From: Nannobrachium achirus
Lineage: Eukaryota; Chordata; Actinopteri; Myctophiformes; Myctophidae
Length of the DNA: 64,000 bases
Assembly: GCA_963921795.1 (NCBI GenBank)
Contig: OY997653.1
Coordinates: forward strand, 19,561,346-19,625,345
Direction: 5' to 3'
Shown here: piece after piece, positions 14,982 to 17,900 of the stretch
How positions within the stretch are numbered: the stretch's first letter is position 1
Layout: each line of letters begins with the position of its first letter
Position numbers and translations under genes: made by a program
The notes under the pieces: model-generated
The model's input: only the letters and a program-made list of their open reading frames with translations
Database searches by the model: none
Told to the model about the DNA's origin: nothing

Positions 14982-17900
14982 CTGGGGGAAAGCACAGACA
15001 CAAGGACACTCAGGAATATCCACAGATTTCCCAGCAAACTTACTGGGAAAAAAGGGGGGGGGGGGGGGTTATTAATGTGGGCTTCACTTCCTCCACACAG
15101 CTGATTCAAATCACTTAACAAAGCACCAAGTAATCACCATGCAGAGATTCAGGTGTCACCGGCTCACAGCAGCAACAGCAAGTCAGAATATAACCGCTAA
15201 GAGGAACAGGAAATGATGCCCACCTTTCTCGCAAGGGCTCATGGGACCAAGCCCCCAGAACCACGGTAGAGCATTGAAGCAGCCTTAGCCTAGTGGTCAA
15301 ACCTGGGAGTGCAGTTAAACGCTACTGCGCGTGCATATGCTAACTGCTAAGGCTACTGTTTACCCTAGCGCCTGGCCTGCTCAGTGCCTCGGCCAATCGC
15401 AAAGTTGGCCTATGTACGCAGGCCAACCAATTAGGGTGCAGTGTACATAGGCCAACTCGGCTACTTCCGTCAGTCTTCCGGGTGCTTCAAACGCCACTGA
15501 GCAACTTGCATTGAAATGAATATCTGGAGCGGGGCTATCCGTCCTCTATTTTATAACTCTATGCATGGGACACAGGACACTTGTGGATACTATACAGATG
15601 CAGTAGGATGGATGGATGGATGGATGGATGGATGGATGGATGGATGGATCGACAGATTGTTTTTACCACAATACCAAAAAGTAACACATAACTGCAGTGA
15701 GTGACCCCCAGACATTCACTGACCGGTCTAAGTGCAGCGTGGGGCCCATAGACATTGACCTACCTGTAGAACTATAGAGTTCTCAAATTCTACCCGACCC
15801 TACCCAACCCGACTGTATGCTAATTAGATGGGCCTGGCTTTGGGCTCAATGAAAAAAATATTCTATTGTCATGATATTTTTTACAATATAATTCTGTTCT
15901 GTCTGTTTGTGTATTTATCTATTATGAGCTCACTTTTACTCTGTGATAGAGTTCTAAAAATGCTGCACAAACCCGACCCGACCTGCCATTTTCGGCCAGG
16001 CCGGGCCTACATTCTATGCTGATTAGTCCAGCCGGGCCGAGCCTCGGGCCAGCCCACTTAGGGCCGGCAGGGTGGGACCCATAGACATTGACATACCTTT
16101 AGAACTGCAGGGAGGGGCCTACAGACTTTGACGTAGGCCTACTGTACATGTATAACTGCATTGTGGGGCCCACAGACATTGACATACTTGTAGAACTGCA
16201 TCGTGGGGCCCTTAGACATTGACATACCTGTAGAACTACATTGTGGGGACCACAGACATTGACATACCTGTAGAACTGCAGCATGGGGCCTACAGACATT
16301 GACATACCTGTATAACTGCATTGTGGGGCCCACAGACATTGACATATCTGTATAACTGCATTGTGGGGCCCATGCCCCACAGAACTGCATTGCGGGGCCC
16401 ACAGACATTGACATACCTGTAGAACTGCAGCGAGGGGCTCACAGACATTGACATACCTGTAGAACTGCATCGTGGGGCCCACAGACATTGACATACCTGT
16501 AGAACTGCAGCGAGGGGCCCACAGACATTGACATACCTGTAGAACTGCAGCGAGGGGCTCACAGACATTGACATACCTGTAGAACTGCATCGTGGGGCCC
16601 ACAGACATTGACATACCTGTAGAACTGCAGCGAGGGGCCCACAGACAGCAGCACGAAGGGGACCACGGTGTAGCAGATGGCGATCTGAGTGGCCGCCCAG
16701 GTCATGATGTCATACAGCAGTTTGTGAGTGGCAGAGTGCAGGAAGTAGGGCCGCACGTTGTGTCTCACCTGCACAGGAAGGGCACAGAGCAAACGGGAAA
16801 TAGGACGTTTTTATAGATGACCTTTTTTCTCTTTTTTTTTTTTACAGGTTACCGATTACTTCGTCCAACCCAGATTTTGTTAACGGTTAACTTAAATGTG
16901 TTCTCCTGCTATGCCGCTAAAATGTGAAACGCCCTACCGAAAGCCTTAAAGGAGTGTAAATCCCTACCTTCCTTTAAAATTGCTCTGAAAAGCCACTTAC
17001 AGGCGGCTGCTACTCGTAACTGGTAAAATAAAACCAAGCCTATCCTTACCTCCCCGACCTTTCAATTGTAAATACCATTTATTTTGCATTGTTTTATGAC
17101 TTTTAATAGTACTGTCATTCAATGTTAAATGAGTTAAAAAAGGACCCCAATTTAAACAAGCCCAAAAGCTTTTTCGTGGTGTTGATCCTTGTTCCAGTGA
17201 ACTCATGAAACTGTACCTTTTTCTATGCAAACTTCTAAATTATTTAAGAGTTAGTTGCAGCATGTGAACATACAGCGCGTGCGGCCAGTGTGATGACGGT
17301 GCCGGTCAGGAAAGTCAGGTAGTACCCGGGGTACGCTCCGTGCCACATGGCTGACAGGATGAAGGTGGCCGCCGTGGGGTGGTAGGGACAGCGCTCATAA
17401 CACACCCTGCAGAGAGAGAGAGAGACACACACCACACACACATGTATTACCATCCTTGTAGTGTCGCGTAGCCAGACTGTTGACTCCCGCGATTAGCAAA
17501 TGCTCCCGTCATACAGTCTGGGAGACTGAATTTCTTATGGTGAGTACCCGGTTAAAGCGGAAGTGAAGCCTCCTCCCCACTTCCGTTTCGTTTTAACATC
17601 GCGCACATTCATCCTAATATAAATATGCCAAACTTTGCACACACACTCCTTGGCTGGCAAACCACAACCTCCGCCCCTGATTTCTCACATGCCCCTGTTC
17701 TAGCGCCACCATGAGGCTGCATGTATACATGCGACCTGACGGTCGCTTATCTCCCGATTACAGGGAGTCTTACTGGTTTACTAAAGTAAGGTAAAGCTGT
17801 GTGTTTAGTTTGCGGGGAGCACATCTTGCGGGGAGCACTGCCTTTTGGCCCGGCCCTCCACAATATTTTCTGTTGTTCATGTGGCCCCATGGAAAAAAAG

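Follow-up and report, generated by a model that had tools for sequence, protein, structure and literature searches.

How does a gene fare when the end of a coding exon, splice donor included, becomes the unit of a tandem repeat? The question is raised by a 64,000-nucleotide (64-kb) window of the myctophid fish Nannobrachium achirus (assembly GCA_963921795.1, contig OY997653.1, forward-strand positions 19,561,346 to 19,625,345), the minus strand of which holds most of an mboat2 gene, which encodes a lipid enzyme. Positions below are those of the window. At the boundary between exon 12 and intron 12 of mboat2 lies an array that is, by its anatomy, a splice-donor minisatellite: its tandem units are of minisatellite size, include the authentic donor of the exon and repeat it. 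We consider it probable that the array is neutral and yields a low level of mis-spliced mboat2 mRNA, where splice-site use, mRNA decay, the low rate and neutrality are what we infer from the structure.

Anatomy of the array

Tandem Repeats Finder (TRF) detected a period of 40 with 14.4 copies at 16072-16647 (score 703). Cyclic alignment of the units placed their start at 16647 on the minus strand and divided the 40-bp unit into 31 exonic and 9 intronic nt. The array covers the final 31 nt of exon 12 plus the donor GTATGTCAA (minus strand), then extends into intron 12. The exonic part of the first unit, 16617..16647, is delimited by the cyclic alignment and by an exact match at offset 120 that runs from 16647. 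An earlier note on this DNA had named the gene, the exon and a period-40 array entering intron 12, and TRF, the frame check and the unit alignment all bear this out. It was also right to place the exon end and donor within the unit, but its estimate of about 36 exonic bases is too long.

The array had been described as one tract at 15737..16656. Period 40 does hold at 16072-16647, but by cyclic alignment the main array reaches only ∼16074, where it gives way to ∼290 bp of unrelated sequence (∼15785..16070) followed by two degenerate outlying units (∼15690..15780, minus strand). Unit alignment fails throughout the interruption, a possible mobile-element insertion. This segment carries GGGTCGGGT-like motifs and has short 82-88% matches to window positions 9383-9471 on the opposite strand, its other matches being weaker. 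The short matches suggest a dispersed element. A blastn search (E up to 1) found no copies of the array unit elsewhere in the window.

Splice donors in the array

The canonical donor of exon 12, CAG/GTATGT with its +1 at 16616, was recognized by donor score and frame. The donor scan and a whole-window count identified eight further CAG/GTATGT donors on the minus strand, with +1 at 16576, 16536, 16496, 16456, 16416, 16307, 16267 and 16227. Across the whole window CAGGTATGT has nine minus-strand occurrences, every one inside the array, against 0.26 predicted for that strand from base composition; the plus strand has 0. CTACAG precedes 8/9 of the GTATGT donors, the exception being ATACAG at 16307, so that the figure of about 14 CTACAG/GTATGT units proposed earlier is too high. 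Two variants, CAA/GTATGT and AAG/GTATGT, have +1 at 16187 and 16096, and the outlying units carry CAG/GTAGGT (15763) and a weak CCG/GTCAGT (15723). The donor is missing from three units, which start at 16407, 16377 and 16178: it was lost to a deletion in the first, to a change of GT to AT in the second and to an insertion in the third. The uniform 40-nt spacing that had been assumed holds within 16616-16416 and 16307-16187 but is broken by gaps of 109 nt past donor 16416 and 91 nt past donor 16187.

Donor scores were calculated from a splice-donor matrix with a candidate cut of 2.5. The repeated array donor scored 5.65, and the donors of six among the other nine mboat2 exon pieces scored 3.19-6.24. 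The remaining three exon pieces, whose ends are probably not exactly located, gave no donor candidate above 2.5.

Gene context and predicted products

The gene was assigned by tblastn using human MBOAT2 and MBOAT1 sequences. MBOAT2 gave clear matches to nine exon pieces and to exon 12, and a weak one to exon 13 (E 0.044). Summed over exon pieces with E up to 0.05, the bits for these queries were 665 for MBOAT2 vs 503 for MBOAT1, and by these sums the gene is closer to MBOAT2. The Pfam family MBOAT (PF03062) passed its cut-off in 2/6 scanned exon pieces; the other 4/6 had no MBOAT match.

Exon 12 occupies 16617..16768 (152 nt, minus strand) and ends ...QFY plus AG in phase 2; it matched MBOAT2 at 60% over 50 aa (E 4.6e-14), and its splice frame was checked. 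Intron 12 (14982..16616, minus strand, 1635 nt) closes with the acceptor TTCCCCCAG. The coding part of exon 13 (14807..14981, minus strand) reads R SWYCSIHV... to a TGA at 14809-14807, encodes a C-terminal hydrophobic segment and tail, and aligns at its start with the C-terminal regions of LPCAT3 and MBOAT7. It appears to be the last exon, judging from its uninterrupted frame up to the TGA and by analogy with the human gene. With the 16616 splice, the predicted exon 11-13 piece gave alignments spanning the junction with the solved structures of MBOAT7 (E 1.2e-9) and LPCAT3 (E 0.0013). We take the C-terminal segment across this junction to be the last membrane helix. A GTCC microsatellite lies just beyond the mboat2 stop, at 14710-14793.

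Twelve array donors were each joined in silico to exon 13. Only donor 16616 gave an MBOAT2-like C-terminus, and 11/11 shifted donors altered or cut it. As the earlier note held, 40 is not a multiple of three, and the frame check confirmed that each 40-nt shift changes phase. Donor +40 meets no stop before exon 13 and produces a frameshifted 102-residue tail that reads beyond the normal stop. This tail would end within the GTCC microsatellite, so its length could vary with the repeat.

The TGA expected in the exon 12 frame at 16559..16561 (minus strand) is present and would terminate transcripts from donors +80 and beyond. Donor +80 gives a 19-residue tail, then the TGA 22 nt upstream of the junction, while the nine donors tested from +120 onward place the same TGA 62 to 795 nt upstream. 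By the 50-55 nt rule, a stop farther than this from a downstream junction marks the mRNA for nonsense-mediated decay (NMD). From +120 onward the distance is 62 nt or more, so NMD is predicted for these transcripts and little protein is expected. The proposal that distal donors truncate the protein is thus upheld for +80 and beyond, but +40 gives the frameshifted tail and from +120 decay is the predicted outcome. Donor +120 preserves the frame yet is spoiled by the TGA. A G-to-A change in a single unit type creates that stop; in the exon-proximal block the two remaining types are stop-free in all three frames.

Expansion of the array

The six exon-proximal units are arranged ABCABC, where unit A holds the exon end. 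They amount to a 120-bp block of three units followed by its exact duplicate (16394..16647, minus strand): 134/134 bases are identical at offset 120, the last 31 coding bases of exon 12 included, which makes this the longest exact non-simple repeat in the window at offsets of 20-300. By the rule of three, divergence of the copies is below ∼2.2%. Because the exact match covers the coding end, the exon end itself took part in a recent duplication, and a recent change in copy number is likely from the sequence.

Substitutions relative to the exon unit numbered 0-2 in the five nearest intronic units and 3-5 in the next six aligned. Left out of this count are the exon unit and the outlying units, along with two gapped units (16407 and 16377) and a partial one (16087); the 11 bases inserted in the 16178 unit are disregarded. 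The exact repeat and the more diverged distal units fit recent growth of the array at its exon side. The end of exon 12 corresponds by homology to the human MBOAT2 segment LSIKPSLTFY; the exon is therefore the source of the units rather than their product.

Conservation, folding and acceptor potential

Donor columns were compared with the rest of the unit for distinct changes. With the 16178 unit treated as clean, 3/16 changes fell in donor columns (3.6 expected). Leaving it out gave 2/15 (3.4 expected, p 0.54), and adding the 16377 unit to that set gave 3/18 (4.05 expected, p 0.78). This test, which has low power (10-11 units, 15-18 changes), gave no sign of selection for the donors.

When the array is folded in silico, ACAGGUAU[GUCA]AUGUCUGU pairs repeatedly and is predicted to place a hairpin over the donor at each unit junction. 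A role for this hairpin in masking donors was rejected: 29% of 500 shuffles cost at least as much to open as the unit donor. The openness of donor 16616 equals the median of nearby positions and lies among the values for six further donors of mboat2, and the whole-array fold is not unusual (z = -1.19).

As a candidate acceptor, the unit CAG/GT has a pyrimidine fraction of 0.59, which ranks at the 68th percentile when compared with all CAGs on the minus strand; nine mboat2 acceptors range from 0.47 to 1.0. A tenth, at 24210, is misplaced, has no AG end and stands outside these nine. A competing CAG sits 8 nt upstream of the unit CAG.

Comparison with other donor repeats

Turri, Cuin and Porter (1995) reportedly described a minisatellite that supplies an interferon-induced transcript, human IFI6 (G1P3, 6-16), with several splice donors. 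As cited by a later paper, two downstream repeat units of IFI6 serve as donors, producing three mRNA species (PMC4526556). IFI6 resembles mboat2 in that a minisatellite repeats a splice donor, though it is another gene.

A closer parallel is the variable number tandem repeat (VNTR) of human ABCA7 intron 18, which includes the exon 18 donor (PMC5954066). As in mboat2, the array adjoins the exon and takes in its donor, the unit (25 bp) is not a multiple of three, and use of the next donor leads to a frameshift, a premature termination codon (PTC) and NMD. Frameshifting isoforms amount to 14 and 2%, the latter, by order in the text, being one-unit retention, and PTC transcripts are raised by cycloheximide. 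One-unit retention is independent of VNTR size; skipping of exon 19 is dependent on it. The two loci differ in that the ABCA7 array is intronic and its first two bases are the donor GT, whereas 31/40 nt of the mboat2 unit are coding exon. The length effect in ABCA7 is also one of skipping the next exon, which in mboat2 appears terminal.

Duplication of AGGT segments in tandem has been linked to intron gain, through the Rogers model, ATP2A1 and fission yeast 24-bp arrays (PMC4974935). The mboat2 array likewise offers candidate donor/acceptor pairs at tandem AG/GT segments, but its copies sit in an existing intron, without a demonstrated new one. Among the papers listed by our literature search, donor arrays of vertebrates were met in IFI6 and ABCA7; the listing leaves room for an mboat2 case in print. 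By its anatomy, the mboat2 array is a further example of the kind known from these two genes rather than a new kind.

Competing explanations

In the neutral account that we favour, the array would have arisen when the junction of exon 12 with intron 12 of mboat2 was duplicated in tandem. Unequal exchange or slippage may then have extended the array into the intron, the latest step being of 120 bp and including the exon end, and the result would be largely neutral. Functional mRNA would come from the exon-most donor, 16616. The remaining donors, equal in local sequence, would act as rarely used decoys: use of +40 would add the frameshifted tail, +80 would truncate the protein, and +120 or beyond would give mRNA that is predicted to be degraded. 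The donor columns without detectable extra conservation and the three donor-less units support this account, as does the one-unit retention of only ∼2% in ABCA7. Several points weigh against it. Nine donors are identical in their 9-mer and near-identical in context, and local sequence gives the first no advantage. Equal competing donors often resolve to the intron-proximal site, which would mean substantial mis-splicing. Donor changes were also slightly under expectation in all three versions of the count, although with little power.

The same nine donors in near-identical context would suit a length-dependent dial, in which extra donors pull splicing away from the first and lower the amount of full-length MBOAT2, as the earlier note had proposed. 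The C-terminus is changed or cut by every shifted donor, and the newest duplication is a recent change in unit number. We nevertheless regard this as unlikely. ABCA7 is the best guide to tandem-donor behaviour that we found and speaks against a dial: in cell lines its one-unit retention is constant across VNTR lengths, from allele pairs of 557+315 bp to 5399+4575 bp (PMC5954066). The lack of detectable excess conservation in donor columns points the same way. Control of the full-length share by array length, though possible, thus draws no support from ABCA7.

There is only a slight chance that splicing is regulated and unproductive, with distal donors selected in a particular tissue or condition so as to route the mboat2 transcript into decay. 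The stop positions from +120 onward would serve this purpose, but no conservation signal was detected, and the first TGA rests on one unit type alone while the other two are stop-free, so that the poison property looks accidental. It is equally improbable that the assembly has the wrong unit number or is partially misassembled. Exact 134-nt repeats are uncountable with shorter reads; on the other hand, distinct unit variants, diverged distal units and the interrupting insert stand in coherent order, which leaves only the copy number doubtful. That hairpin opening controls splicing by unmasking each donor is most improbable, since the repeated pairing is offset by the ordinary opening costs given above.

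A further reading, which we hold as a long shot, is that the array corrects itself. In most units the end is CTACAG and the start GTATGT, which makes a retained segment a GT...CAG block in its own right; one from any of the eight intact distal donors could be removed by a second splicing step. The pyrimidine tract of the unit CAG, within the range of mboat2 acceptors, is compatible with this, and the upstream CAG would compete. If true, recursive splicing would restore the exact normal end of exon 12 and repair a distal choice, and arrays that copy AG/GT could expand at little cost to the gene.

Other repeats in the window

TRF also detected a coding-like repeat with an 84-bp period at 2541-3046, presumably tandem C2H2 zinc fingers from its resemblance to that motif. 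At 48426-48780 lies a 122-bp tandem repeat with 97% matches and exact runs of 76-78 bases.

Significance

For the mboat2 gene the consequence of the array is probably small. Its interest is that a single intron offers a naturally occurring set of donors that are nearly identical: unit counts across individuals would test directly how the spliceosome chooses among equals, and whether coding sequence can join minisatellite turnover.
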